Made by a program: the position numbers and the translations under genes. DNA of 21,846 nucleotides, from positions 1 to 21,846 of the IMG/VR virus record IMGVR_UViG_3300027963_003106. One strand, given 5' to 3'. The stretch is from a virus. Within the stretch, counting starts at the first letter, position 1. Every line of letters starts with the position of its first letter. Shown here piece after piece: positions 3,283 to 21,570 of the stretch. The notes under the pieces are model-generated. The model was given only the letters and a program-made list of their open reading frames with translations, made no database searches and was not told the DNA's origin.

Positions 3283-3310
3283 AATTAAAAAAGCCCGCCG
3301 AAGCGGGCTG
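3283..3310 (-). terminator. Rho-independent terminator of the csp-tmRNA unit
   Basis: AGCCCGC-TTCG-GCGGGCT hairpin (3309-3292) on the minus strand followed by six T residues. It ends the transcript containing the tmRNA coding piece. Confidence 0.93.
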
Positions 3311-3668
3311 GTTGTTTCTGTTACGAGGTATTTCCTACCCTATCGCGGTGATTAAACTGCGAAAGATTCGGCTTTCACTGTGCGAGCAGAGAACTTGATG
3401 TTCTTACCACTTACAGTTACTTCGCCTGTAGATGCGTTTGCATTTACTAGATTTGCTTGATTTACGGTCATCGCCTACCGTGTTGCCGTCGCCAATATCT
3501 CACCCCGTCGAAACCGGTCGGGCCCATTATAAAACACATTGGGTTGCCTGTACTCGAATGCTTGAGTCGGTTTTATGCAATATGCTTTATGGTGGACCCG
3601 GGGGGAATCGAACCCCCGTCCGAGCTGCCTTCTCTTTGAAGGAATTACAACAATTCTTTACCGACTAC
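3311..3668 (-). ncRNA. ssrA: Circularly permuted (two-piece) tmRNA
   Basis: The tRNA-like 3' half lies upstream of the 5' half. The acceptor piece (about 3668-3590) ends with a T arm GGGGG-TTCGATT-CCCCC, then CGGGTCC, discriminator A and encoded CCA (3592-3590). After a 64-nt intervening segment (3589-3526), the coding piece begins GGGCCCGACCGGTTTCGACG (from 3525), the standard tmRNA 5' signature. GGGCCCG pairs with CGGGTCC over 7 bp to rebuild one acceptor stem. A 7-bp ATAAAAC/GTTTTAT helix (3576-3570 with 3535-3529) closes the intervening loop. The segment before the tag, CCGTAAATCAAGCAAATCTAGTA, matches the usual resume-site layout in two parts (CGTAAA...GCAAA and TAGTA). The tag frame then runs from about 3444 to TAA at 3354-3352. 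The outer ends are not defined by sequence alone. Known two-piece tmRNAs occur in alphaproteobacteria, cyanobacteria and some betaproteobacteria. Confidence 0.9.
3352..3444 (-). other. tmRNA proteolysis-tag reading frame, about 29-30 codons
   Basis: Directly after TAGTA the frame reads N-A-N-A-S-T-G-E and ends ...K-A-E-S-F-A-V-stop. If the resume codon is the GCA at 3441-3439, as the GCAAAC match to other tmRNAs suggests, the tag has 29 residues; if it is AAT, 30. Most tags have 8-16 residues and end in LAA or VAA. The final FAV here departs from the ClpXP/SspB-type degron. An in-frame ATG lies nine codons before the AAT (3471-3469). I treat it as chance, because that stretch is the conserved pre-tag region. 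Confidence 0.7.
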
Positions 3669-3944
3669 TTATACTGCTTCTGCAACAGCACTGATTGGTG
3701 CTGGAACAAATGCCAAATAGGCTGCTACAACAGCATTTGCTGTGGCGATATTACTATAATATGATACGCTAGTATAAGTTCCTGCATCAATAGTCTGTGT
3801 ATATGCTGAAGCTTGTTCCCCTGCAGCAATCGCATTTTGTTTAATAATCGATACTGAAGTCAATTCATCTTCAGTGAACGGGCGATCCATAACTACTGTG
3901 GATTTTGCATTTGCAACGAATGATTGTGTGGCCAATAGTGACAT
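3669..3944 (-). CDS. Small Ala/Ser/Thr-rich protein between csp and tmRNA
   Basis: A 91-aa protein with no recognised family. It opens MSLLATQSFVANAKS, has one acidic central stretch (DRPFTEDELTS), and then a long Ala/Tyr/Thr-rich C-terminal half ending SAVAEAV. There is no clear signal peptide, and the hydrophobic stretch ANAVVAAYLAFVPAPI (about 69-84) is short for a membrane span. The start has AAGGAG eight bases upstream. It lies 27 bases after the cold-shock gene and its stop codon abuts the tmRNA acceptor piece, so all three are probably one transcript from the promoter at 4213-4241. The position suggests a gene expressed with the tmRNA, but the function is unknown. Confidence 0.72.
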   Translation of the reverse strand: MSLLATQSFVANAKSTVVMDRPFTEDELTSVSIIKQNAIAAGEQASAYTQTIDAGTYTSVSYYSNIATANAVVAAYLAFVPAPISAVAEAV

Positions 3945-3971: not shown

Positions 3972-4175
3972 TTATGCAGGTACAATGTTTGATGCCTGCT
4001 TGCCTTTTGGTCCTTGAACCAAATCAAATTTTACCACTTGATTTTCTTTTAATGTTTTAAATCCATTAATATTAATTGCTGAAAAATGTGCAAATACATC
4101 TTCTCCACCATCATCTGGAGTAATGAATCCAAAACCTTTTGCATCATTAAACCATTTTACTTTACCTACTACCAT
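3972..4175 (-). CDS. csp: Cold-shock-domain protein (CspA family)
   Basis: A 67-aa protein that is a single cold-shock domain, the usual length of CspA-type nucleic-acid chaperones. The N-terminal strand [15 protein letters not shown] contains RNP1 (K13-I18), and DVFAHF (26-31) is RNP2. The closing [13 protein letters not shown] is also typical. These proteins bind single-stranded RNA or DNA and melt weak secondary structure. The start is ATG 4175, with AAAGGAAG about nine bases upstream, preceded by a near-perfect promoter (4213-4241) carrying an inverted repeat over the -10 box. It is first in a unit with the 91-aa protein and the tmRNA. In a phage it probably aids transcription or translation during infection; that role is inference. 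Confidence 0.95.
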
Positions 4176-4281: not shown

Positions 4282-4358
4282 TGGTGGGCCCACCTGGATT
4301 TGAACCAGGGACCAAGGGTTTATGAGACCCCTGCTCTAACCAACTGAGCTATAGGCCC
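4282..4358 (-). tRNA. tRNA-Ile2 (anticodon CAU, expected lysidine-modified)
   Basis: A complete cloverleaf: acceptor GGGCCTA/TGGGCCC, D arm GCTC/GAGC, anticodon stem GGGGT/ACCCT with loop CTCATAA, T arm CCTGG/CCAGG, discriminator A and encoded CCA (4284-4282). A CAU anticodon can mean Met or Ile2. The body resembles E. coli tRNA-Ile2 (TTAGAGCAGG, CTTGGTC, CTGGTTCAA). Positions C4-G69 and C5-G68 are the pairs known to let TilS choose tRNA-Ile2 over tRNA-Met. I therefore favour Ile2, reading AUA codons. It has its own promoter at 4367-4395. Confidence 0.92.
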
Positions 4359-9940: not shown

Positions 9941-11179
9941 TTAGGTTCTAGTATTTCCGTAGTGTAACACAGCAATGCCTGGCATGTCAAATGGCAACTT
10001 GCGCCATGGATCGACTATGACACTGCCTGGCTGTATTTCACAATAGGGTTGTGTATCGGGTGTGTTACCGGTGTATTCGTATGTGATTTTTCTATTGTGT
10101 GCCCATAAAAATACCGCAGGTCCATCAATGGTATCTAAACAATGAGTGCGATCATCGGCCAATGGATCGACGTAGACCACAGGCAAGCCAGCTTCGCGAA
10201 TATAGAATCCTACCAAGGTGCTGTAACTACCAATACAGTATTCAACGTCAGGCTTGTAAGCCTTGCCGTGAATTACAATTGGTAAACTAAGTCGTTGCGC
10301 TTGATCAACTAGGAACAGGGCCAAGTTCTTGGCCTGTATTTCTCTGGCATGCATCACTGTGTCAAACAGGTCGTAGCCAATATTGTATTCTTCTGCTAAC
10401 CAACGGAGTGCAATGTTATCACGGGGATGGCAGGCACCAGCATCACCCATGCCTGCCGTCATATATTTAGGACCCATGATTCGCATGGTCGACCTTGCTA
10501 AAGCATTTGTAACCACATCGACGTTAATGTGACCAATCTTCATAGCAAAGTCTTGAATCATGTTTACAAGCCCTACCTTGGCTGAAATAAATGTGTTGTA
10601 GAAAATCTTAATAGCTTCGCACTCGTCCCAGGTGCCAATTTCATAACGTGGATTATTCTGCATGATTGTTTCATACAAGTCTCTTAGTTCACCAGCAACT
10701 CCAGTCAGATTGCCATCTTCGGTACCTAACATAATCATTTCGGGATTGACCATGTCCCACTTGACTGAACCCATGGCAATCAAATAAGGGTTATAAACAA
10801 ACTGATGTTTTTTGTCTAACAAGGGAACAAACTTATTGCGGGTTGTTCCGGGTAATACTGTAGAAATCAGCACTACTTTTTTAGGTGTAGTGGCATATTG
10901 GTTTACCTTGTTGATAGCATCAATAACTGCATCATGCCCAAAGTCCTTGGGAGTCATATGACTTGACGGAACTGATCCATCGTACCCTTCAGCGTGTGGA
11001 GTAGGAACCGCGATAAAAATCCACTCGCTTTCATTTACTACTTCGCTAATGTCGCATACTTTTACACTGTCGCTAACACGTGGATGAATGTCATAGCCAC
11101 GAACTTCGTGCTTTTCAGCAAATACTTCTGCACAGTCCAAGCCCAGCTTGCCGATGCCAATAAATCCTATTTTTTTCAT
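9941..11179 (-). CDS. UDP-glucose 6-dehydrogenase-like nucleotide-sugar dehydrogenase
   Basis: A 412-aa protein of the UDP-glucose/GDP-mannose dehydrogenase family, which oxidises the sugar C6 to a carboxylate using two NAD+. It has an N-terminal Rossmann motif GFIGIGKLG (5-13) and AVPTP (57-61). The central helix is EAIKIFYNTF with K191 and N195, the catalytic cysteine C250 is in GDAGACHPRD, and the second NAD domain opens GKAYKPDVE (305-313). Key residues look intact, and the length is normal. The sequence is divergent from cellular enzymes, so the exact sugar is uncertain. The start is ATG 11179, with AAGGA seven bases upstream; the longer frame to 11206 lacks support. It lies 53 nt after NAD synthetase in the same operon, which may supply its cofactor. 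Confidence 0.85.
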   Translation of the reverse strand: MKKIGFIGIGKLGLDCAEVFAEKHEVRGYDIHPRVSDSVKVCDISEVVNESEWIFIAVPTPHAEGYDGSVPSSHMTPKDFGHDAVIDAINKVNQYATTPKKVVLISTVLPGTTRNKFVPLLDKKHQFVYNPYLIAMGSVKWDMVNPEMIMLGTEDGNLTGVAGELRDLYETIMQNNPRYEIGTWDECEAIKIFYNTFISAKVGLVNMIQDFAMKIGHINVDVVTNALARSTMRIMGPKYMTAGMGDAGACHPRDNIALRWLAEEYNIGYDLFDTVMHAREIQAKNLALFLVDQAQRLSLPIVIHGKAYKPDVEYCIGSYSTLVGFYIREAGLPVVYVDPLADDRTHCLDTIDGPAVFLWAHNRKITYEYTGNTPDTQPYCEIQPGSVIVDPWRKLPFDMPGIAVLHYGNTRT

Positions 11180-11232
11180 GTGAGTCCTTAAAGATAAATG
11201 ATACAATAATTTATCCGTGTTTTCGGCGGTGA

Positions 11233-12003
11233 TTAAGATTTCTTGAACACAGGAATTGGGTTCATTTTGTGTAGGCTACGGGCACGTATCGCTTGATATT
11301 TTTGTAAGCGTTCTAATTCCAGGCTATTTCTCACTAAAATTCCGCCTTCGTCTTGTTGCATAGCCAGCTCTAAATCAGCATAGCTTAGTCCTAATTGATC
11401 TTGATCTGTGCGTCCATCATCCCATAGGCCATCTGTAGGGGCCGCATCGATAATGTCTTGTAGCACTCCTAATTCACGACCCATTTGCCACACTTCTGTT
11501 TTGTAGCAGTCAGCAATAGGACTAATGTCTACACCACCATCGCCGTACTTGGTATAAAATCCTACACCAAAGTCTTCAACTTTATTGCCTGTGCCTACTA
11601 CGATACCGCCGACGCTTTGAGCAATTTGATACAAGGTGACCATACGCAGGCGACTACGACTGTTGGCAAATCCTAATAAATTATTGTAAGTGCTCAGACG
11701 ACGTTCAAACTCATCAAAGGTACTAGTTAAATCAATAATATCATGACGCACATTGTCAAAATTTTGTGCTAACCAAATACCTTGGCGCATACTGAGATCA
11801 TGTAATTCAGGAAGTTGACGTATGGGCATGGTCACAGCAAACGTATTGAGACCAGTCCGAGCACATAGCGCACTGACTACAGCACTGTCAATACCACCAC
11901 TGATACCCACCACTAGAGATTTTATGCCAGCTTGTTGGGCATAGTCTCGAATCCAATCGGTAATACGATCCTGTAAAGGTACTGATGTAGCAGAGTTTGT
12001 CAT
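11233..12003 (-). CDS. nadE: NH3-dependent NAD+ synthetase
   Basis: A 256-aa enzyme that joins ammonia to nicotinate adenine dinucleotide using ATP, the last step of NAD+ synthesis. The ATP-pyrophosphatase P-loop SGGIDS is at 35-40. The hallmark block GTGNKVEDFGVGFYTKYGDG is followed by PIADCYKTEV, then PTDGLWDDGRTDQDQLG. There is no N-terminal glutaminase domain, so it is the ammonia-dependent type, close in length to E. coli NadE. The start is ATG 12003, with AAGGA seven bases upstream; an in-frame ATG at 12057 lies inside the membrane protein gene. It is in one operon with a nucleotide-sugar dehydrogenase. It is likely to support NAD+ levels during infection. Confidence 0.93.
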   Translation of the reverse strand: MTNSATSVPLQDRITDWIRDYAQQAGIKSLVVGISGGIDSAVVSALCARTGLNTFAVTMPIRQLPELHDLSMRQGIWLAQNFDNVRHDIIDLTSTFDEFERRLSTYNNLLGFANSRSRLRMVTLYQIAQSVGGIVVGTGNKVEDFGVGFYTKYGDGGVDISPIADCYKTEVWQMGRELGVLQDIIDAAPTDGLWDDGRTDQDQLGLSYADLELAMQQDEGGILVRNSLELERLQKYQAIRARSLHKMNPIPVFKKS

Positions 12004-12011
12004 AGCATTCC

Positions 12012-12362
12012 TTAAATCCAGTGTTGTGCTAACACCATTAGGCTCAACCAAGCCCACATAGTATTAAATCCTACTAATGTAGGTAATGCTTTTTTACGGC
12101 TAGCCCAAATAAGTGTTACGCTGGTTAATAAGGTTAGATAATACAATTCCCAGATCTGAATACCAAAGATCAAACCCGGAATAATAATAATTGCTTTGGC
12201 CAACCAACTAACAAATTCAACTGTATTGTAACCAGTCCAGTATTCTTTCTTAAACCACATCATGTAGCAGTCACGCATATTACGCCAACCGCTGTGGCTA
12301 TAACTAATAACCATTAATACTAACCATACACCTACTGCTAATAAAATTTGATTTTGTGTCAT
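12012..12362 (-). CDS. Small membrane protein, unknown function
   Basis: A 116-aa protein with about four hydrophobic segments: residues 5-22 (ILLAVGVWLVLMVISYS), 52-70 (AKAIIIIPGLIFGIQIW), 72-88 and 96-114. Trp is abundant. A short basic loop MMWFKKEYW separates the first two. No signal peptidase site is seen, so it should stay in the inner membrane. AAGGAA precedes ATG 12362 by seven bases. It fits 1 nt after the 80-aa gene and 8 nt before nadE. No family was recognised; holin-like function is not supported by size or context. Confidence 0.72.
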   Translation of the reverse strand: MTQNQILLAVGVWLVLMVISYSHSGWRNMRDCYMMWFKKEYWTGYNTVEFVSWLAKAIIIIPGLIFGIQIWELYYLTLLTSVTLIWASRKKALPTLVGFNTMWAWLSLMVLAQHWI

Positions 12363-12363
12363 T

Positions 12364-12606
12364 TTAATTTCCTTTTAAATTCCATATTAAATGTTCAATT
12401 CTTTCGTGGTATCTAAACTCGAGCACTGTATCTCCGGGTCCAGTCCACATTGCTATTCCTTCGTACACATAGCATAACCATAACCGGCGACCAGTTATGG
12501 CGCTACGCTTTGGTCGCCACACGAATTTTAAACGCCACACAGCACGATCTCGAAACGGCTCATCCGTCCAATCCATTCCGGGTATTGGCACAATCAAGTG
12601 CCCCAC
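12364..12606 (-). CDS. Small conserved phage protein, unknown function
   Basis: An 80-aa Trp/Arg-rich protein. GTG 12606 overlaps the end of queE, but ATG 12576 (MDWTDEPFRDRAVWRLKF) is an equally likely start; neither has a strong ribosome site. The pattern RLWLCYVYEGIAMWTGPGD followed by EHLIWNLKGN is characteristic of a small family I recall in large aquatic phages. No function is known to me. It sits between queE and the membrane protein with almost no spacing. Confidence 0.7.
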   Translation of the reverse strand: MGHLIVPIPGMDWTDEPFRDRAVWRLKFVWRPKRSAITGRRLWLCYVYEGIAMWTGPGDTVLEFRYHERIEHLIWNLKGN

Positions 12607-13451
12607 TCGTTTTTAAACAGTGGAACCTGTAATCGATCACTATATCTTAGTCCGTGTTTCATTGCCAACAATGCTACATTACGATTGTTCATAGCGTATA
12701 CCGTTTCTACACCACCTACTGGCATTAGATACACATGTCCAGTAAATCCTGCTGTACGATATGCAGCAATTGCACATTCAGCATCAGCAAAGTCTTGTTC
12801 AGTGGCAATAACAAATTTCAAATATGCTGTGCCATATTCTTCATAGTCACAAACTACCGTAGGTAGGATAGCTTCCTCCCACCGTTCACCACTGCATGGC
12901 AGTTTGGCACTGACACTGAATGTAATCTCTCGCCAAAAGTCTTTGTCATGATGGTGTGCCCAGGTATGCAAATACGAAGCAAACTCTTTGGATATCTCTT
13001 GAGTACCATTTGTTTCGAACGTAATTTCTTTAAGTCCCTGCATCTTGGGATGATCCAGCAGATCTGGATAAGCACGTTGCCAGCCCAGCAATGGCTCACC
13101 ACCAGTGATAACCAAATGTTCATCACGCCATTCACCGTGTGGAAGTATTTCCATAATACGTTCTACGATAGCATCAGTTGTAAGCATTGGACTTAGGTCT
13201 TTAAAACTAGGATGCCAACTGGCATAACTGTCGCAACCCGTGCTTACTAATGGTAGTTCTTCATATCGGTTATATAGGTGTGCGACCTCACCAAGTTCTT
13301 CGGCTTCTGTGCTCAACTTGCCACGTGGCATGCCAAAGCCAGCACATTTAAAGTTGCATCCAAACACACGTAGGAACACCGATGGTACCCCCATGTAGCG
13401 TCCTTCACCTTGTACCGAATAGAATAATTCTGCTATTTTTAATTTACTCAT
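12594..13451 (-). CDS. queE: 7-carboxy-7-deazaguanine synthase QueE (divergent cluster motif)
   Basis: A 285-aa radical-SAM enzyme that converts 6-carboxytetrahydropterin to 7-carboxy-7-deazaguanine, on the way to preQ0. Evidence: an ELFYSVQGEG substrate-binding start (8-17), GVPSVFLRVFGCNFKC with C32 and C36, and ITGGEPLLGWQ for SAM binding with ETNGT further on. In the usual family the cluster motif is C-x3-C-x2-C-D-T. Here C36 is followed by AGFG and the third Cys appears to be C73 in STGCDS, so about 34 residues are inserted. Phages use preQ0-type bases to modify DNA against restriction, or to influence host tRNA. No queC, queD or DNA-inserting dpdA is in this window. Its ATG overlaps the 66-aa gene by 8 nt. 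Confidence 0.88.
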   Translation of the reverse strand: MSKLKIAELFYSVQGEGRYMGVPSVFLRVFGCNFKCAGFGMPRGKLSTEAEELGEVAHLYNRYEELPLVSTGCDSYASWHPSFKDLSPMLTTDAIVERIMEILPHGEWRDEHLVITGGEPLLGWQRAYPDLLDHPKMQGLKEITFETNGTQEISKEFASYLHTWAHHHDKDFWREITFSVSAKLPCSGERWEEAILPTVVCDYEEYGTAYLKFVIATEQDFADAECAIAAYRTAGFTGHVYLMPVGGVETVYAMNNRNVALLAMKHGLRYSDRLQVPLFKNEWGT

Positions 13452-13644
13452 TGTTGACCTTTAATGGAATGCTTCTGAACATGTATTGCACACTGTTGTC
13501 TTTAAGAAATGATTTATCAAAAAAAGTGAAGTATTGATTGAATTCTTCTGAAGTTAGTTCAAAATGATCAATGGGTTCTTTACTCTCAGCAATAGCCCGT
13601 TTCATTTCATCTAACAAATTGGGTTTTTTATAATGTATTTTCAT
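13444..13644 (-). CDS. Small protein between PRTase and queE, unknown function
   Basis: A 66-aa charged protein: MKIHYKKPNLLDEMKRAIAE, then a DHFELTSEEFNQYFTFFDKS segment and a C-terminal strand VQYMFRSIPLKV. The start at 13644 gives a perfect ATGA overlap with the PRTase stop, with GGAGG 11 bases upstream; a longer frame to 13677 lies inside the PRTase. The stop overlaps queE. No family is recognised. The reading frame is supported mainly by its coupling at both ends. Confidence 0.65.
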   Translation of the reverse strand: MKIHYKKPNLLDEMKRAIAESKEPIDHFELTSEEFNQYFTFFDKSFLKDNSVQYMFRSIPLKVNNE

Positions 13645-14174
13645 CGCCACCAATCCTCCCAAGGAAAAACAATCCACACATCTTCTTCAGCTTTATTTAG
13701 ATCAACTGCTGAATAACTAATTTTTAATTCACTCTTACTTGCTTCGTTGTCTACCAGGGTAGCAACACGAACGTTATTGCCCCACACGTCATCCCAGCGT
13801 TTGTCGTTGGGCAAACACCCACTTGGCCAATCATTTTTGATCCAGTTTAGTGTAGCACCTGAATCATTAATATCGTCTACAATAAGAATGTTTTTACAAC
13901 CATTGCTGGAGCACATAGCATCATAAACAGGGTATCCAAATGCATCCTCGGCCATCCATAGATTACTTTCTGGTTGGCTATTGTTGTCACGTAAACTTAC
14001 TTTAAGACATTCCATTGGAACCTCTAAGTATTGACTAATAAGTGATGCAGGCACTAGCCCGCCACGAGTAAGACCTACTACGTAATCGGGCCTCCATGCA
14101 TCACGTTGTAGTTGACGTAGAATTTCTTGCGTTTGACGCTCAACATCCTGCCACGTGTAAAATATTTTTTTCAT
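13641..14174 (-). CDS. Phosphoribosyltransferase (PRTase type I fold)
   Basis: A 177-aa enzyme of the type I phosphoribosyltransferase family. The PRPP-binding motif is LIVDDINDSGATL, with its two consecutive Asp residues, and YVVGLTRGGLVPA is the usual N-terminal PRPP loop. The C-terminal WIVFPWEDWW resembles the hood of xanthine/guanine PRTases (XGPRT-like). It probably transfers ribose-5-phosphate between PRPP and a purine-like base. Being two genes upstream of queE, it could act on a deazapurine, but ordinary purine salvage is just as possible. ATGA overlaps join it to the methyltransferase and the 66-aa gene. Confidence 0.85.
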   Translation of the reverse strand: MKKIFYTWQDVERQTQEILRQLQRDAWRPDYVVGLTRGGLVPASLISQYLEVPMECLKVSLRDNNSQPESNLWMAEDAFGYPVYDAMCSSNGCKNILIVDDINDSGATLNWIKNDWPSGCLPNDKRWDDVWGNNVRVATLVDNEASKSELKISYSAVDLNKAEEDVWIVFPWEDWWR

Positions 14175-14785
14175 TTAAATGCATTTCTCACATCATCTTT
14201 GTTCCATAAACACATCCTGCGGGTTACTTCACCAACAGGGCCATCATCCAAACTGTCGATTGGTTTGGGTAAATTAAAAGGTTTTGCTTCTAAATTAACT
14301 GGTCGGAACCCGCCTGTATTGATATCTTGATTATCAAAATGGCCTGGTAAAAAGCTAGTAGTCATTATGTATTTTACATTACTTGATAGCACATTGTCAA
14401 ATACTTTGGCCATGTCGGAGTCTGACAAATGAAATAAACAATCACGACAAAATAATAAATCAACATCCGGAAGTGCGTTTTGTGTTAGATCAAACACTCT
14501 AAAATCTTTGTCCGGCCACTTTCTTTGATTCTTTCTAATCAAAAAATTCACAATATCACCGCCGATGTAACAAAAGTTTTCAGGGAATTCAACCTGACTC
14601 ATCCAGGAAAAATCCCCGCACGGAATATCTGCCATGCTTTGTATTCCGTGTTTGACTAAAAAAGTCGGTAAGGTTTCTCTAAGTTGTTTGGTGTAGGCTA
14701 TCGAACTTCCAGACCCGCACGGAACGTTATGATCCCATTTACGATATCTTATAATATTAGCAAAAATATCTTTCATTATGTTCAT
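14171..14785 (-). CDS. Class I SAM-dependent methyltransferase-like protein
   Basis: A 204-aa protein with a Rossmann-type methyltransferase core. ADIPCGDFSWM (52-62) is the SAM-binding glycine loop, CYIGGDIV follows as the second strand, and DVDLLFCRDCLFHLS is motif IV/post-IV. The C-terminal part (INTGGFRPVNLEAKPFNLP) resembles uncharacterised phage and bacterial methyltransferases of this group. The acceptor is unknown. The longest frame reaches 14821, but that part holds the promoter. ATG 14785 lies exactly seven bases after the -10 box with no ribosome site, so a leaderless start is likely; ATG 14776 is the alternative. It is first in the 14785-7407 operon and its stop overlaps the PRTase ATG. 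Confidence 0.8.
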   Translation of the reverse strand: MNIMKDIFANIIRYRKWDHNVPCGSGSSIAYTKQLRETLPTFLVKHGIQSMADIPCGDFSWMSQVEFPENFCYIGGDIVNFLIRKNQRKWPDKDFRVFDLTQNALPDVDLLFCRDCLFHLSDSDMAKVFDNVLSSNVKYIMTTSFLPGHFDNQDINTGGFRPVNLEAKPFNLPKPIDSLDDGPVGEVTRRMCLWNKDDVRNAFK

Positions 14786-14791
14786 AATATT

Positions 14792-14821
14792 ATTATACAG
14801 TAGTTTACCGCTGTTTGTCAA
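14792..14821 (-). promoter_or_regulatory. Consensus sigma70 promoter, probably leaderless
   Basis: TTGACA (14821-14816), 18-nt spacer, TATAAT (14797-14792) on the minus strand. It starts right after the stop codon of the SDR gene (14822). The predicted start coincides with ATG 14785. It would drive the whole queE/nadE/SGNH operon. Confidence 0.82.
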
Positions 14822-15760
14822 TTATCGTGTGAGCCATTTGGGGTTGTTGATATACCAATTGACCGTTTTGGTCAAGCGGTCTTGGTAGGAGTCGGGTGCT
14901 TGCCAACCTAGCGTGTATAGTCGGCTAGGATCAACACTAAAGCATAAGTCGTGCCCAGGGCGATCAACTGGAACCAATCGATAGGACAATTTACGACCCA
15001 TTATCTGTGCAATCTGTTGGGCAAATTCAAGATTATTGATAAATTTATCTCCAGCACTGTTCCATTTTTCACAACGGGCAGATTGTATTTCTAATATAAA
15101 TCGAGTGTGGCTGGCTACATCTCCAGCATAGAACCAACGGCGCCCACCAATCAATTCACTGGGCCCCACGTGTATGTCTAAAGTTTCGTTGTTGAGTAAT
15201 TTGCGTATAATGATCACAGGTAACCGATTGCTTTGGCAACGTGGACCAAAGGTGTTGTTGATGTGTATAATGCTCACAGGAACATCAAATGAATTGGCAT
15301 AGGCCAGGCACAGTTCTTCACCGGCCGCTTTGCTGGCCGCATAGGGACTGTTGCTGTTGTAGGCGTCGCTCACTAGGCTGTCTTGACCAATGGGCACAGG
15401 ACCATATACTTCTCCCGAACTGTAGTAGACAAATCGTTCAACACCGGTATGGCGGGCATGTTCTAACAAGTTTAGTGTGCCCAACACATTGTCCATGACA
15501 GATGCAGTGGGATTACTCAAGCTGTCAGCGGCGCTGGGATTGGCTCCTGCATGTAATACGATATCAGCTTTTGGAAGATTGGCGCAAGAATTTTTAATAT
15601 CGTGTTCAATGATTTCAATGTCATTGACAAATTCTTCTAGTCTAATCATGTTGGTAGATCCAGGACGGACCACACAGATCACACGATGATCCTTAAGAAA
15701 TTCTTCCACTAAGTAGTGTCCAATAAAGCCATTGGCACCAGTGATTAATACTGTTTTCAT
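14822..15760 (-). CDS. NAD-dependent nucleotide-sugar epimerase/reductase (extended SDR)
   Basis: A 312-aa extended short-chain dehydrogenase acting on an NDP-sugar. It has ITGANGFIG (6-14) for NAD(P) binding, the catalytic Tyr-Lys pair Y140/K144 in SPYAASK with S114/S115 upstream, NNTFGPR, and the C-terminal RPGHD block of the RmlB-like group. The strand before the active site reads YYSSGEVYG, where 4,6-dehydratases have TDE. The loss of that Asp argues against dehydratase activity and for an epimerase or 4-ketoreductase. It is the last of the nine ATGA-linked glycan genes, and the next promoter begins immediately after its stop. Confidence 0.85.
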   Translation of the reverse strand: MKTVLITGANGFIGHYLVEEFLKDHRVICVVRPGSTNMIRLEEFVNDIEIIEHDIKNSCANLPKADIVLHAGANPSAADSLSNPTASVMDNVLGTLNLLEHARHTGVERFVYYSSGEVYGPVPIGQDSLVSDAYNSNSPYAASKAAGEELCLAYANSFDVPVSIIHINNTFGPRCQSNRLPVIIIRKLLNNETLDIHVGPSELIGGRRWFYAGDVASHTRFILEIQSARCEKWNSAGDKFINNLEFAQQIAQIMGRKLSYRLVPVDRPGHDLCFSVDPSRLYTLGWQAPDSYQDRLTKTVNWYINNPKWLTR

Positions 15761-16437
15761 GGTTGGTATTTGTAAACAGTATCTGAATGTTCGTGCATAA
15801 TTTCTTGATAGCCTCGATCACTGAGAAACTTGTCAAACGTAGTTTTATCGACGCCGTATCTAGCAGACCATGTATCAAACCACTCTACTATGATCACAGG
15901 GTGATATCGTTCAATGGTATCAACAGCACCTTGTAACGCAAAATACTCATAGCCTTCTATGTCCAACTGAATAAGATCGCATCCGGGCAGATTCAGGTCA
16001 TCGACTCGCACAGTGGGTATATTGCCTTTTTGTCCCACATGCATACCACCTGCTTCTAAGCCATCATCACTAACGTGTCCATCTAATTCTATAAAGATTT
16101 TTTCTTTACCCAGGCATGCTTGAGTCTTTATTACATTTCTGGGGCTGTTCAATGTAAGGCACAAAAAGTTTAGTGGATCTGGTTCAAATGTATACACTGT
16201 GTTAAACCACTTTGCATATTCTCGAACATATTGTCCACAATTTCCGCCGGCCTGAATCATGATATTACGATTAGGAATATGATCCATTAATGTTTTTAAA
16301 AACTCCAGAGTCACTGGCGAGTCATGCATGGCCCACCACGTACCTCGATCATATATGGGCCAAAATATAGGCTCAAAGTCTGGCAACTGATCAGATGTTC
16401 TAATCTCAATAATTTTATTCAATTCTTCATTGGTCAT
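15757..16437 (-). CDS. FkbM-family methyltransferase
   Basis: A 226-aa SAM-dependent O-methyltransferase of the FkbM type, which usually methylates sugar hydroxyls. It shows IMIQAGGNCGQYVREYA (SAM loop), VYTFEPDP at the end of the second strand, a VDDL segment and the family signature LIQLDIEGYEYFALQGA. The start is ATG 16437: it overlaps the preceding TGA as ATGA and has GAGAAG five bases upstream. The alternative at 16491 lies inside the transketolase gene. Its place between the transketolase pair and an SDR suggests it caps or decorates the sugar made by this operon. Confidence 0.88.
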   Translation of the reverse strand: MTNEELNKIIEIRTSDQLPDFEPIFWPIYDRGTWWAMHDSPVTLEFLKTLMDHIPNRNIMIQAGGNCGQYVREYAKWFNTVYTFEPDPLNFLCLTLNSPRNVIKTQACLGKEKIFIELDGHVSDDGLEAGGMHVGQKGNIPTVRVDDLNLPGCDLIQLDIEGYEYFALQGAVDTIERYHPVIIVEWFDTWSARYGVDKTTFDKFLSDRGYQEIMHEHSDTVYKYQP

Positions 16438-16913
16438 GTTCTTCTCACATTTAAATACGCCGGCTGATCGCTGTATAAAAACTCTGGCCACATGGATTCT
16501 AGTTCAGCTATACTATTGGGCTGATAGATCTTGATATTAGGAAATACCGCAACAGCACGAGCAGCATCTTCGGCCCAGTGACTAAATCCCAAATGTCCAT
16601 AGTCCTGATCACGGCCTACACCCACTAACTTGACCGGTGCCAGCTCATGATCTAGGTAGTTGCGTAGCCATTCATATGGACGGAAGATTACAAAAGGAGT
16701 AATGCTGTAGCACACAGGTATCTTGCCACAATGGGTAAGCCCTACTGCTGTGCCCAACATAAGTTGTTCTGCGGCTCCTACATTAAGAGCACGGTCAGGT
16801 GCTATTTCTCTTGATCGGTTAAGCACACCAAATCCAAGATCACCCGATAGCAACCATACATTAGTATCTTTGGCCAATGAGTCGGCCATGAGTTCACCAA
16901 ATCTATTTCTCAT
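16434..16913 (-). CDS. Transketolase-like subunit, pyrimidine-binding domain only
   Basis: A 159-aa protein matching the central (Pyr) domain of transketolase/DXP synthase. SGDLGFGV, then NVGAAEQLMLGTAVGL with E49, the glutamate that activates thiamine diphosphate, and SHWAEDAARAVAVFPNIKIY, equivalent to the family's H-x-x-ED-x-x...P block. Normal C-terminal subunits of split transketolases run to about 300 residues because they add a C-terminal domain; here the chain stops after the Pyr domain. It should pair with the PP subunit encoded directly upstream (ATGA overlap) to form a ThDP enzyme moving a two-carbon unit. An inactive remnant is unlikely, as the key residues remain. Confidence 0.85.
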   Translation of the reverse strand: MRNRFGELMADSLAKDTNVWLLSGDLGFGVLNRSREIAPDRALNVGAAEQLMLGTAVGLTHCGKIPVCYSITPFVIFRPYEWLRNYLDHELAPVKLVGVGRDQDYGHLGFSHWAEDAARAVAVFPNIKIYQPNSIAELESMWPEFLYSDQPAYLNVRRT

Positions 16914-17518
16914 AGTTGATCCAAATCTTCTGGTTTTAACACATAGTAATGCGTGAGTATGCCCTTGGCAAACGGCCAGTTGGGTGGTGCGGTTTCACGT
17001 ATATTGATACGTGGTAAGAAAGCACGTAAACGGTTGATAATATATTCTTTGTCAATAAAGTCATAGGCAATCATGCCGTTGACGTTTACATATACTTCTA
17101 GGTTGTCTAATTTAGCTTCGTAGATAAAACGCAGTGCTTCCCATATGCTTCCTTCACCACACTCGCCGTCACTGATTAAACAATGAACTCTACGACTTCG
17201 ATCAGCTAGGGCATATCCACAGGCCACTGTAAGTCCCATGCCTAGACTACCAGAGCTACAAGGCAAGCCGTCTTCAACATTTCTATGTGGATGAACTCCG
17301 TGTTTGTGAAACAGGTGTTCGGCATCCTTGCCTAGATATTTTTCCAATACCACATACCAAGCCAAGGCCGCATGACCTGAACTTAAAATAAACGGCTCGT
17401 TGGGTTGTCGATTTTTGTAAATTTCTTCAATGATGTTGACCGCATTAAGATTGGAACTTAGATGTCCAATCTTTTCTTTATAGCTAATATCAATGATTCT
17501 TTGTTCAACATCGTTCAT
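16910..17518 (-). CDS. Transketolase-like subunit, ThDP pyrophosphate-binding domain
   Basis: A 202-aa N-terminal-type transketolase subunit. SSGHAALAWY (47-56) and SSGSLGMGLTVACGYAL (88-104) are family blocks. The metal/ThDP motif is SDGECGEGSIWEALRF (116-131) followed by NVN at 145-147, with S replacing the first Gly of GDG and N for the common Asp before the last Asn. Split N-subunits are usually near 270 residues, so this one is short. It works with the 159-aa subunit downstream. In O-antigen clusters such pairs lie next to sugar dehydratases and are thought to attach two-carbon branches to keto-sugars; that role here is inferred from context. Confidence 0.87.
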   Translation of the reverse strand: MNDVEQRIIDISYKEKIGHLSSNLNAVNIIEEIYKNRQPNEPFILSSGHAALAWYVVLEKYLGKDAEHLFHKHGVHPHRNVEDGLPCSSGSLGMGLTVACGYALADRSRRVHCLISDGECGEGSIWEALRFIYEAKLDNLEVYVNVNGMIAYDFIDKEYIINRLRAFLPRINIRETAPPNWPFAKGILTHYYVLKPEDLDQL

Positions 17519-18834
17519 AGATATAAACTCATAAATCCGTCAACTTTCTCTCCAATGTAGGCAATCTGTTCGGGAGTAATAACTGGGCTACATCCATGGA
17601 AGTAAGTGTTCTTCATAGTGAATGTGGCCACAGGATAGTTGTCACGAGCGTCTGCAGGATTCATCAAATGACTGTATGCAGGTTGCAACATGATGTTGCC
17701 TGCAAAGTATGGGCGTGTCTGTATCAAGTTTTCTTCAAGATAGTCAACAATGTCCATACGAGAGAACGGAGCATCCGCGCGGATGGTCAATGGGAATGCA
17801 AACCAGCTAACGTCGGCCTTGTCTCTAGCACGTGGCAAGTGAAAAAACTGTTCGTACTTTTCATAGATGGCAAACAATAGATTGTAGTTGCGTTGACGCA
17901 ACGCATGTATCTCAGGCAGTTTCTTAATCTGTTCAAGCCCCATGGCAGCTTGTAATTCAATGGGTTTTAGGTTGTAACCAATTTCATCATACACATATTT
18001 GTGATCAAAAATCTGATCGGGCATTTCAGGAATCCACTCATTGAATCTTTTACCGCAGGTGCCACATTTCAATTTGTTGGCTTCGGGCCCTACGCAATAG
18101 CAACCACGTCCCCATTCACGTAGACTACGCACAATAATTTCTTGCTGTGGATCATTCATGGCCACAAAGCCGCCTTCGCCCATGGTCATATGATGTGCTG
18201 GATAAAAACTGCACGACGCCATTAGACCAAAGCTACCCAATGGCTTTCCATCATAATTGGTACCTAATCCGTCACAACAATCTTCTAACAAGATTAGATC
18301 GTGTTTAGCAACCAGTTCCATTACACGATCCATGTTTGGTGGATTACCTAGCACATGTGCAAACGTGATAATTTTAATGTCTGGATCGTTGGCAAGTATC
18401 TGTTCTGCTTGATCTAGATCAATGTTTAAGGTATCAATTTCGATATCACAGAACACTGGCGTAAATCCATTTTGTATAGTTGGATTAAGTGTGGTCGGAA
18501 AGCCGGCAATGGGCATCAATACTTTGGTACCTGGTGGAAAGTTATAGCCACGTTTGCTTTTCATGGCTGTCATCATCAAGAGATTTGCACTGCTACCCGA
18601 GTTGGTCAACACTCCGCGAGTCTTGCCAAATTCTTGAGGGAATTTTTGTTCAAAACGTAGGCTCTTGTTGCCCATAACAAGCCAACCATTTAGTAGTGCT
18701 TCTGCAGCCGCTACATACTCATTGGAGTCAAAATGCGGACCCGCATAGTTAACAAAATCTTTGCCGGCTACCCAGGTCTTGTTTGCGTGTTTGGCATCAA
18801 TGTATTTTTTAATGTCTTCTAATATTTGTTTCAT
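17515..18834 (-). CDS. rfbH: RfbH/E1-type NDP-4-keto-6-deoxysugar 3-dehydrase
   Basis: A 439-aa enzyme of the DegT/DnrJ/EryC1 fold. It is identified as a 3-dehydrase rather than an aminotransferase because the PLP lysine is replaced by His: SFYPAHHMTMGEGG, with H214 at the Lys position. The [2Fe-2S] ligands also appear present: C186 in EDCCDGLG, plus C245, C247, C257 and C260 (GCYC, CGTC). Family members (YerD/AscC E1, RfbH) remove O3 from CDP-4-keto-6-deoxyglucose with PMP and an iron-sulfur reductase partner. That partner is not in this window and may come from the host or from outside it. The length is that of the family. ATGA overlaps link it to a glycosyltransferase-like gene upstream and the transketolase pair downstream. 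Confidence 0.92.
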   Translation of the reverse strand: MKQILEDIKKYIDAKHANKTWVAGKDFVNYAGPHFDSNEYVAAAEALLNGWLVMGNKSLRFEQKFPQEFGKTRGVLTNSGSSANLLMMTAMKSKRGYNFPPGTKVLMPIAGFPTTLNPTIQNGFTPVFCDIEIDTLNIDLDQAEQILANDPDIKIITFAHVLGNPPNMDRVMELVAKHDLILLEDCCDGLGTNYDGKPLGSFGLMASCSFYPAHHMTMGEGGFVAMNDPQQEIIVRSLREWGRGCYCVGPEANKLKCGTCGKRFNEWIPEMPDQIFDHKYVYDEIGYNLKPIELQAAMGLEQIKKLPEIHALRQRNYNLLFAIYEKYEQFFHLPRARDKADVSWFAFPLTIRADAPFSRMDIVDYLEENLIQTRPYFAGNIMLQPAYSHLMNPADARDNYPVATFTMKNTYFHGCSPVITPEQIAYIGEKVDGFMSLYL

Positions 18835-19565
18835 ATGTTAATTCCAAGTTGATTGCAAATTTCTCTCATAATGTTTATTACTGCTTGACTACCACGACTG
18901 CCATGAAAATGTAGTATATGAGCCCGCTCTATAGGCCAAGAATTCCACACATTGTGCTGACCTATTATATTTGGATCCATGGTTCTTACCTTCATTGCTT
19001 GATAGGCCATTTCTGGATGCCATCGGTCTGTGTCTGGAATATCTTGACTCCAGAACATGGCATTGTGTCTTAACTGGTCAAAACCCCAATTACGGTCTGG
19101 GTGAGTTTCTCGTTGAGTCAACCATTCTTCTCCAAGTTTCCATACATTGTCTGACATGGTGTGCGGATAATATTGTATATCATCATTGAAATAGTGTGCA
19201 AAATCTTTATAATTTTTTGGATCGGTATAATTAAACAATCGGTATTGAGAGAACCTGTTAGAAAACAAGTCTGTAGGCTGAATCATAAGTGTATCAGCCC
19301 CTGCCCAAAATATGTTGCAAGGTTCTTTGTGCCATAATTCTTTGATATCTAACCAATTTTGATAGGTGCAAGTATCGCTATTGGTAGCAGGATCAGTCCA
19401 TACCACAGATTCAAATGGTTCTTTTACAAAGTGTTCAAAACTGGCCAATCTTAAACGATACATTTCTTGATAGTCCAAATGCAGTTGTGAGCTGTCTTGA
19501 TTCATCCAATTTTCTGATATAGGACGAACCGAACACACCAAGTAATTTTTTACCATACTTGTCAT
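18831..19565 (-). CDS. Putative glycosyltransferase (GT-A/GT8-like), tandem copy 2
   Basis: A 244-aa protein related to its upstream neighbour. Shared blocks are KNYLV at the start, then EPCNIFWAGADTLMIQP (about 82-98) where GAD could be a metal/nucleotide-binding DxD-like site, LFNYTDPKN, DIQYYP and a C-terminal HILHFHGSRGS. The late HFHG resembles the HFxG of GT8 glycosyltransferases. A sugar-transfer role fits the operon, but the classical DxD is incomplete, so this is a motif-based guess. The ATG at 19565 overlaps the preceding TGA; ATG 19556 aligns better with the paralogue and could be used. Confidence 0.6.
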   Translation of the reverse strand: MTSMVKNYLVCSVRPISENWMNQDSSQLHLDYQEMYRLRLASFEHFVKEPFESVVWTDPATNSDTCTYQNWLDIKELWHKEPCNIFWAGADTLMIQPTDLFSNRFSQYRLFNYTDPKNYKDFAHYFNDDIQYYPHTMSDNVWKLGEEWLTQRETHPDRNWGFDQLRHNAMFWSQDIPDTDRWHPEMAYQAMKVRTMDPNIIGQHNVWNSWPIERAHILHFHGSRGSQAVINIMREICNQLGINI

Positions 19566-20341
19566 TTCAAATGAGAGATATCTATAGTTTTTGACGGTCT
19601 AGGATTTACCGGAACATCGGGTATTTTTAGTGCATTATTCATGTTTTCCATCAAATGCAATTTCAATGGAGCATGCCGGCTTCCATGCCAGTGAGCAATG
19701 TTGGCATCTTCTATACGGCAACCGTTCCACGTATCTGTTAATTGTTGAGCTTCTTCGTTACCGGGTAACCAATGACCTTGATATGCCATAGTAGGGTCAA
19801 TTACCTGCTCTGGAGTTAGTCCTTGATCCCATACCATATAATTATATAATTTTTGATCGTCATTCCATTTAGTGCAGTTGCTCAATTTACCAAGAGCAGT
19901 TTCAAACATGGCACGATCCATTTCAGCTGGAAAATAACGTATGTCGGCATTTAAAAAATGCGGCAGTTCGTCTAGTGTTTTAGGATCAGTATAATTAAAC
20001 ATCATGAAGTGTCGGTATCGACCAAATACTTCAACTGGTTTTAATACCTGCACATCACTGCCACAATAATAAATGTTACAAGGTTCTGTGGACCAAATAT
20101 CCCATATGGCACGAAACTGTTGACGAAATACATGCTTGACATCTGTGGCAGTTGATTCTAGTCGGATTAATTCCCAATCACCTTGCAGGAAATGAAAGAA
20201 ACTGGCTTCGCTGAGCCGAGACATTTTTTCATAGTAGTAGTATAAATCACCATCAATGGTCTCTTCAGTTGACCGGTCGCTGCCTGGCCACCATTCGGTA
20301 CTAACAATACGGTGTAAACCTTTAACTAGATAATTTTTCAT
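19562..20341 (-). CDS. Putative glycosyltransferase (GT-A/GT8-like), tandem copy 1
   Basis: A 259-aa protein. After MKNYLVKGLHR comes an acidic Tyr-rich loop, then EPCNIYYCGSDVQVLKPVEVF (about 84-104) with a GSD-x-x-x-L-K-P pattern like the DxD strand of GT-A enzymes, FNYTDPKTLDELPHFLN, DIRYFPAEM and IAHWHGSRH near the end. It has a C-terminal extension of about 25 residues, absent in copy 2. The two copies are clearly paralogous and probably differ in donor or acceptor. No membrane span is present, so it acts in the cytoplasm. ATGA overlaps link it to the C-methyltransferase and copy 2. Confidence 0.6.
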   Translation of the reverse strand: MKNYLVKGLHRIVSTEWWPGSDRSTEETIDGDLYYYYEKMSRLSEASFFHFLQGDWELIRLESTATDVKHVFRQQFRAIWDIWSTEPCNIYYCGSDVQVLKPVEVFGRYRHFMMFNYTDPKTLDELPHFLNADIRYFPAEMDRAMFETALGKLSNCTKWNDDQKLYNYMVWDQGLTPEQVIDPTMAYQGHWLPGNEEAQQLTDTWNGCRIEDANIAHWHGSRHAPLKLHLMENMNNALKIPDVPVNPRPSKTIDISHLK

Positions 20342-21570
20342 TGTGTGACCTCTACTGTTGGGGAATATCTAAGGAATCTATCATTATCATTATTTCTAGC
20401 CTTTTGAATTTTAGATTTTATTTCTTTAAAAAAGTTCCATGCTAATGATATAAATAGTATTTTATTCTCGGAGTTACAATTATTCAAGTGATCAACACTG
20501 AAAATAGCGCAACCGGTACCGGGTGTAAATTTTCCTTGTTTGAGTGGATTGTCGTCTATAATAAAATCCAATTGGATATTGCCAAAGTTTAATAGTGTAT
20601 TACCTTTAGCCGAAGCACCATAGCCCACTAAGGTATATCCATCTGCTCGATATTGATCAATAACTTGAATCAATTGATCCATGTTAGACTTAACTATGGA
20701 TCCCCAGCGAGTATACGTATCCTTGTTCAACAAGCCGTATGCGGCTTCGAGGTCAATGATATTCTTTACACGATTTTTATTAACAGAGGCCTTGCTTAAA
20801 ATAAAAATATAACTGTTGCCGTGTATGGGGGTTTTAATTGTATCAACTAAATTTAACCCTGCACGTTGAGCCAATCGGCTCATTGAGTTAACATTAAAGA
20901 AGTTAACGTGCTCGTGATAAATTGTATCAAACTCATTGTGTAACACCATGTCAGCCTGACTAGTTTGAATAAACAACACAGTGTTGTCAGTCATTAGTTC
21001 AGCACAACAAGTTATAAATTCGTACGGATCTGGATTATGGGCACAGACATTTTGTGCTATGATAATGTCGTAGTTGACTTGTTTTAATTTTTCAATAGCA
21101 GCAGGTCCAAAGAAATCACAAATCACTGAATGACTGGCACTGCTACGGAGAAAAAGATTTTCAGCAGGGTCAATACCATATGTGTTTATTGGTTGTAACT
21201 GTTGATTTCTTGCTTTTTTAAAATAGTTAAGTTGTGTTCCATCATTACAGCCGATGTCTAACACATTGCTAACGCCGATACAAGACTCTAAACAAAAATC
21301 AGCAAACCATTTGCAATAGTCCTGTATGGTTTGATTGGTGCCGGTAGCATACAAATAGTTTTTATAAATAATTGCCGGATCAACTGTGTGATTTAATTGT
21401 AAGTGAAAACAATCATGGCAAAGGCTTACCGCCAACGGATAACGGTCTTCGGTTGCATCGGCCGAATCTCTGTAACTGTTAGCCAATGGCTGTTGGCCAA
21501 GATCTAATGCTGTGTGAATATCATCTGACCCACAGGCCAAACAGTGTGTATTTTCTGTTACGTGATTCAT
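20338..21570 (-). CDS. NDP-sugar C-methyltransferase (TylC3-like, three-domain)
   Basis: A 410-aa enzyme with the full layout of sugar C-methyltransferases. The N-terminal zinc module has C10, C13, C51 and C54 (HCLACG, LCHDC). The SAM-binding core is VLDIGCNDGTQL (103-114), the active-site region contains YHEHVNFF (218-225), and the C-terminal Rossmann-like domain has VGYGASAKGNTLLNFG. Members such as TylC3/EryBIII/NovU methylate C3 or C5 of NDP-4-keto-sugars. Residues expected for zinc and SAM binding are all visible. It lies between an SDR and the glycosyltransferase pair, joined by ATGA overlaps, so it probably acts on the same keto-sugar pool as RfbH. Confidence 0.9.
   Translation of the reverse strand: MNHVTENTHCLACGSDDIHTALDLGQQPLANSYRDSADATEDRYPLAVSLCHDCFHLQLNHTVDPAIIYKNYLYATGTNQTIQDYCKWFADFCLESCIGVSNVLDIGCNDGTQLNYFKKARNQQLQPINTYGIDPAENLFLRSSASHSVICDFFGPAAIEKLKQVNYDIIIAQNVCAHNPDPYEFITCCAELMTDNTVLFIQTSQADMVLHNEFDTIYHEHVNFFNVNSMSRLAQRAGLNLVDTIKTPIHGNSYIFILSKASVNKNRVKNIIDLEAAYGLLNKDTYTRWGSIVKSNMDQLIQVIDQYRADGYTLVGYGASAKGNTLLNFGNIQLDFIIDDNPLKQGKFTPGTGCAIFSVDHLNNCNSENKILFISLAWNFFKEIKSKIQKARNNDNDRFLRYSPTVEVTQ

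Follow-up and report, generated by a model that had tools for sequence, protein, structure and literature searches.

Is a tmRNA gene cut in two and carried by a phage a spare host part, as phage tmRNAs are usually taken to be, or has the phage put it to a use of its own? The question arises from a 21,846-base IMG/VR fragment (the window), in which an earlier note had described a circularly permuted tmRNA gene. Database models bear this description out. On the minus strand, positions 3652-3352 match the Rfam family RF04321 (tmRNA_permuted; 113.8 bits, E 6.6e-22, gathering threshold 47), which identifies a circularly permuted, two-piece tmRNA gene, and positions 3705-3383 match RF01850 (beta_tmRNA; 109.1 bits, E 9.7e-33, gathering threshold 84). 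ARAGORN called a permuted tmRNA on the same strand, in agreement with Rfam. All three lines of evidence (ARAGORN, Rfam and the coordinates) place the acceptor piece first on the transcribed strand, followed by the spacer and the coding piece (Table 1). The base pairs of the RF04321 model cover the tRNA domain only. The high scores predicted for permuted models were obtained; RF00023 (one-piece tmRNA) has no row among the Rfam matches listed, from which lower-scoring overlapping hits within one clan are left out, and a weaker match to it may exist. The phage carries a genuine split tmRNA gene.

Table 1. Features of the tmRNA locus and of the DNA upstream of it, in window coordinates.
Feature	Position	Strand	Basis
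Acceptor (3') piece	3590 to ~3668 (5' end approximate)	-	RF04321 and RF01850 alignments, coordinates, pair counts
Joining helix, 5' strand, in acceptor piece	3652-3648	-	Rfam alignments
T-arm, loop TTCGATT	3617-3601	-	Rfam alignments, pair counts
3' acceptor strand	3600-3594	-	Pair counts
Discriminator A	3593	-	Coordinates
Encoded CCA	3592-3590	-	Coordinates
Spacer to be cut out, 64 nt	3589-3526	-	Fold, relatives
5' acceptor strand GGGCCCG	3525-3519	-	29/29 paired
Coding (5') piece	3525 to ~3311 (3' end approximate)	-	Rfam alignments, pair counts
Joining helix, 3' strand CAACA, pairs with UGUUG	3485-3481	-	Alignments, pair counts
Tag reading frame	3441-3352	-	ARAGORN, 28 relatives, pN/pS
Resume codon GCA	3441-3439	-	ARAGORN
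Tag stop TAA	3354-3352	-	ARAGORN
Intrinsic terminator: 7-bp GC stem (3309-3292), loop of 4, T run	3309-3287	-	Sequence
91-aa ORF directly upstream of tmRNA	3669-3944	-	No family match
Cold shock protein gene, upstream of tmRNA	3972-4175	-	Gene annotation
Promoter-like site before cold shock gene, 11/12	4241-4213	-	Consensus match only
tRNA-Met (CAT)	4282-4358	-	ARAGORN; often upstream of tmRNA in relatives

The locus contains a 7-bp acceptor stem with T-arm, a G3-U70 pair, a discriminator A, a resume codon and an open tag frame with a stop, all of which are typical of tmRNA. The usual Ala-Ala end of the tag is absent, as the window tag ends in FAV. The coding piece holds a tRNA-like 5' part, the 3' strand of the joining helix, a pre-tag region, the tag and a conserved 3' tail. 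The CCA end at 3590, the start of the coding piece at 3525 and the 64-nt spacer between them lie where the earlier note had placed them. The 7-bp acceptor stem it proposed (3525-3519 with 3600-3594) is covarying: in the window and 28 relatives, all 7 pairs form in 29/29 sequences, and pairs 4-7 have undergone compensatory changes. Pair 3 (G3 at 3523, U70 at 3596), the alanine identity pair, is a G-U in all 29, and each pair of the T-stem is kept in 28 or 29 of them. CCA is replaced by CCT or CCG in some relatives.

The proposed closure of the spacer by a helix also stood, but not its length of 7 bp. The 7-bp pairing (3576-3570/3535-3529) is possible on paper; at minimum free energy, the spacer instead forms 12 bp (3589-3578/3541-3530; -14.4 kcal/mol, z -3.7 against shuffles), in a helix that starts immediately after CCA and leaves 4 unpaired nucleotides before G1. 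This helix supersedes the shorter one. A similar plan is found in most of the 29 members, despite spacer lengths from 23 to 124 nt. The covariation of the acceptor stem and T-stem, the invariant G3-U70 and the spacer z-score together indicate a tmRNA structure beyond chance.

Permuted tmRNAs in phages are already known, so that the form itself is not new, contrary to what the earlier note had supposed. A survey of 18,146 phages found tmRNA in 402 and counted 133 unique structures, of which 53 are two-piece (PMC9004378); in IMG/VR, at least 120 matches to one permuted-tmRNA DNA pattern were found. The same pattern was found 16 times in 84,980 species genomes, a rough comparison as only some permuted types fit it. 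The tmRNA database paper counts 79 phage sequences (PMC11915505), and PMC7162821 places tmRNA and SmpB of huge phages on record. With the RF04321 and RF01850 tmRNAs, the window gene shares its gene order, tRNA-like domain, spacer, G3-U70 and resume region. It differs from both in its 29-residue FAV-ended tag, and its tag region departs from the beta consensus, where the encoded tag is short. The isolated methylophage Melnitz, like the other two-piece phage forms, has a phage-encoded permuted gene that probably relies on host SmpB; unlike the window gene, that of Melnitz is reported to be alpha-type and riboswitch-linked, in a host of another lineage, and AV tags are not mentioned in the main-text passages of that paper (PMC9004378). 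Xanthomonas phage XacN1, Pseudomonas phage UF_RH6 and Sinorhizobium phage Phosso are large or mid-size tailed phages that likewise encode permuted tmRNAs, whereas their tags end in LAA (ANANTFDYALAA, ANDTSFDVRLAA and ANDNVSTKVALAA, respectively). In addition, one of the window proteins has a relative in Phosso (64.5% identity).

These phages also bear on the host, which the earlier note had hoped the permuted form would help to name. The Xanthomonas and Pseudomonas hosts of the first two carry a one-piece tmRNA. Since permuted genes nevertheless occur in XacN1 and UF_RH6, and since the tag module adjoins beta-like or alpha-like tRNA-like domains depending on the member, a permuted tmRNA does not reveal which host a phage has.

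Annotation overlooks such genes. XacN1 carries an unannotated permuted tmRNA, in two copies, along with an unannotated GOLLD RNA within a stretch without annotated genes (L216:4006-4305 and L216:5345-5758). The tmRNA of UF_RH6 (Samunavirus; L219:1980-2400) is not annotated as such, and DNA similar to its locus is present in five further Pseudomonas phage records.

The tag of the window is ANASTGEVTVSGKNIKFSARTVKAESFAV, with 29 residues about three times as long as the common length of 10 (PMC11915505). A query with five such tags yielded 28 IMG/VR loci, which were aligned with the window. These loci are not independent, as some lie on identical or nearly identical phage, and they comprise 22 distinct 87-nt tag sequences. 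In all 29 aligned loci the tag is 28-30 residues long and ends in [FL]AV, while Ala-Ala is found in 0/29. The AV end is kept even as tag identity falls as low as 62%, and a 31-residue version (L019) likewise ends in FAV. In a wider survey, 67 of 77 distinct tags of permuted phage tmRNAs ended in Ala-Ala. This end is usual without being strictly defining, as Carsonella tags can end in lysine. The in-frame pN/pS of the tag was 0.64 for the 22 distinct sequences and 0.49 for the 14 of a core group, compared to 0.91-2.07 in the other frames. As these sequences are few and closely related, and since hairpins in the tag RNA constrain bases too, this lends modest support to a coding constraint.

No tag of this kind was confirmed in 84,980 species genomes by a pattern-based scan of limited sensitivity, and tblastn gave no match in 50,697 phage records. 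In the order that includes Herbaspirillum, a search of 399 genomes gave only partial, weak matches (at most 23 bits, none spanning the tag), which we take as chance. A bacterial-host origin of the tag was set aside, as the genome scans gave no confirmed match. Nearly all PDB matches of the peptide fall in short cell-wall-binding repeats, a similarity that seems fortuitous. AV-ended long tags are not described in the main-text passages of PMC9004378, PMC11915505 and PMC7162821. The unusual point of the locus is its phage family, with a long, conserved, AV-ended tag of which we found no earlier account in these passages. Long phage tags of another family, ANADTFDFSAMSFTGNTV..., end in ALAA (L010, L024, L030, L033, L036, L044, L065, L071 and others). 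Permuted tmRNA tags called by ARAGORN in Herbaspirillum and Duganella (L151, L154, L155, L157, L164) end in -GT, as in ANEPQFVAYGT.

Within the family, tag and tRNA-like domain appear to behave as separate modules. The tRNA-like parts of the window and L134 are 100% identical and their tags 91%, while L124 shares 99% of the tag and only 58 and 67% of the tRNA-like parts. Some members have a GGCGGAG T-loop beside the same kind of tag; rather than being aberrant, these loops match the alphaproteobacterial consensus. The opposite patterns of L134 and L124, together with these alpha-type loops, suggest that tag and tRNA-like domain have probably been exchanged. A possible agent is found on L002, a related contig of 178 kb, whose locus (L002:2926-3970) begins with a permuted tmRNA of another type, tagged ANDDTYLLAANA and missed by ARAGORN. 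This gene is followed by a reverse-oriented ORF for a homing endonuclease (phrog_655, E 2e-45), past which lie a leftover window-type tmRNA 3' tail and terminator, beside a neighbour gene of 88% identity. Pieces resembling this endonuclease adjoin the tmRNA in L017 and lie close to it in L128 and L129, making the enzyme a candidate for mediating the exchange.

From these features, we consider it probable that the phage encodes a functional two-piece tmRNA that rescues ribosomes with the SmpB of the host and marks the released products for degradation less strongly than usual, or in another way. A transcript would run from upstream, perhaps including the cold shock gene, down to the terminator at 3287; the promoter-like site may serve this whole cold shock-tmRNA unit. 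The spacer helix and acceptor stem would form a tRNA-like precursor, which host tRNA-processing enzymes would cut at G1 (3525) and after CCA (3590), leaving two pieces that stay paired through the UGUUG/CAACA helix and the acceptor stem. The alanyl-tRNA synthetase of the host would recognise G3-U70, and host SmpB would bind the tmRNA and carry it into ribosomes stalled on broken mRNA. These would switch to the phage frame and release proteins bearing the 29-residue FAV-ended tag. The phage would in this way retain ribosome rescue and alter what becomes of the tagged protein. ClpXP recognises its substrates mainly by Ala-Ala-COOH (PMC7652416), and a variant ending in AAV is broken down more slowly than one ending in LAA (PMC9382460). 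By analogy with this work, done in E. coli with other tags, proteins with the phage tag are probably poorer ClpXP substrates than those with the host tag, or meet another fate.

A bolder version, which we put forward only tentatively, is that this lineage has rewired trans-translation, combining rescue with a phage-specific tag that avoids the Ala-Ala route, on a module that is mobile, possibly via homing endonucleases. The tag would then stabilise products or send them to another protease or partner. A tag that never ends in Ala-Ala and stays constant while the tRNA-like domain varies makes it testable whether rescue is wanted and destruction of the product is not.

AV-ended tags are still degradable, and the tag may therefore act as an ordinary, slower degron. 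On that ground the gene could be an ordinary captured tmRNA with a slightly divergent degron, read by ClpXP as usual, whose only gain is extra ribosome rescue. That most of the surveyed permuted phage tags end in Ala-Ala agrees with such a capture, as does the finding that a slowed tag still functions as a tag (PMC9382460). We regard it as rather unlikely, however, given an AV end shared by every aligned member across so wide a range of tag identity, and the unusual length of the tag.

No SmpB gene was found in the window, nor in any of 20 related contigs, some of which exceed 100 kb, and SmpB is expected to come from the host. Since the window is a fragment of 21.8 kb, this phage may nevertheless have an SmpB gene in its remaining DNA. 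The lack of SmpB in these contigs would also fit a decoy that reduces trans-translation in the host by occupying its SmpB or its alanyl-tRNA synthetase. A precedent may be seen in mycobacteriophage DS6A, whose tRNA-like-only RNA is likewise phage-encoded and tmRNA-derived (PMC11915505 and PMC4131195). DS6A has no tag frame, whereas here that frame is conserved along with the resume region and stop, all unnecessary for a decoy, and we consider this role very improbable.

Neighbours common to the window and most relatives are an exonuclease, small ORFs, tRNA-Met, the cold shock gene, the tmRNA and a phosphoesterase, and ORFs weakly similar to the 91-aa ORF precede the tmRNA in some. A 1.2-kb DNA query from the locus mostly matched the cold shock gene. 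The least likely explanation, that the gene is a functionless passenger or integration relic, can draw on the frequent use of tmRNA genes as integration sites (PMC11915505) and on the homing endonuclease of L002, but hardly accounts for a full-length, covarying tmRNA with its own terminator in a conserved gene order, with no integrase among the window ORFs searched.

The exonuclease of the window is closest (50%) to those of PA5oct, Paride and other jumbo phages, and the window also encodes a virion-type protein. A Gp23-type capsid gene was found in three large permuted-tmRNA contigs (178, 197 and 344 kb), of which L128 and L143 have the AV tag and L002 a different one. The capsid model worked better than the terminase models PF03237 and phrog_2, which matched only in the 344-kb contig. 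Judged by these genes, the carrier is a large tailed phage. Among the related phage contigs searched, ClpP was encoded only by that of 344 kb. Finally, host-like genes concerned with sugars and cofactors form a long series at window positions 9941-21570, including genes for a nucleotide sugar dehydrogenase, NAD synthetase, QueE, an RfbH-like aminotransferase, a dTDP-glucose dehydratase-like protein and a transketolase in two ORFs.
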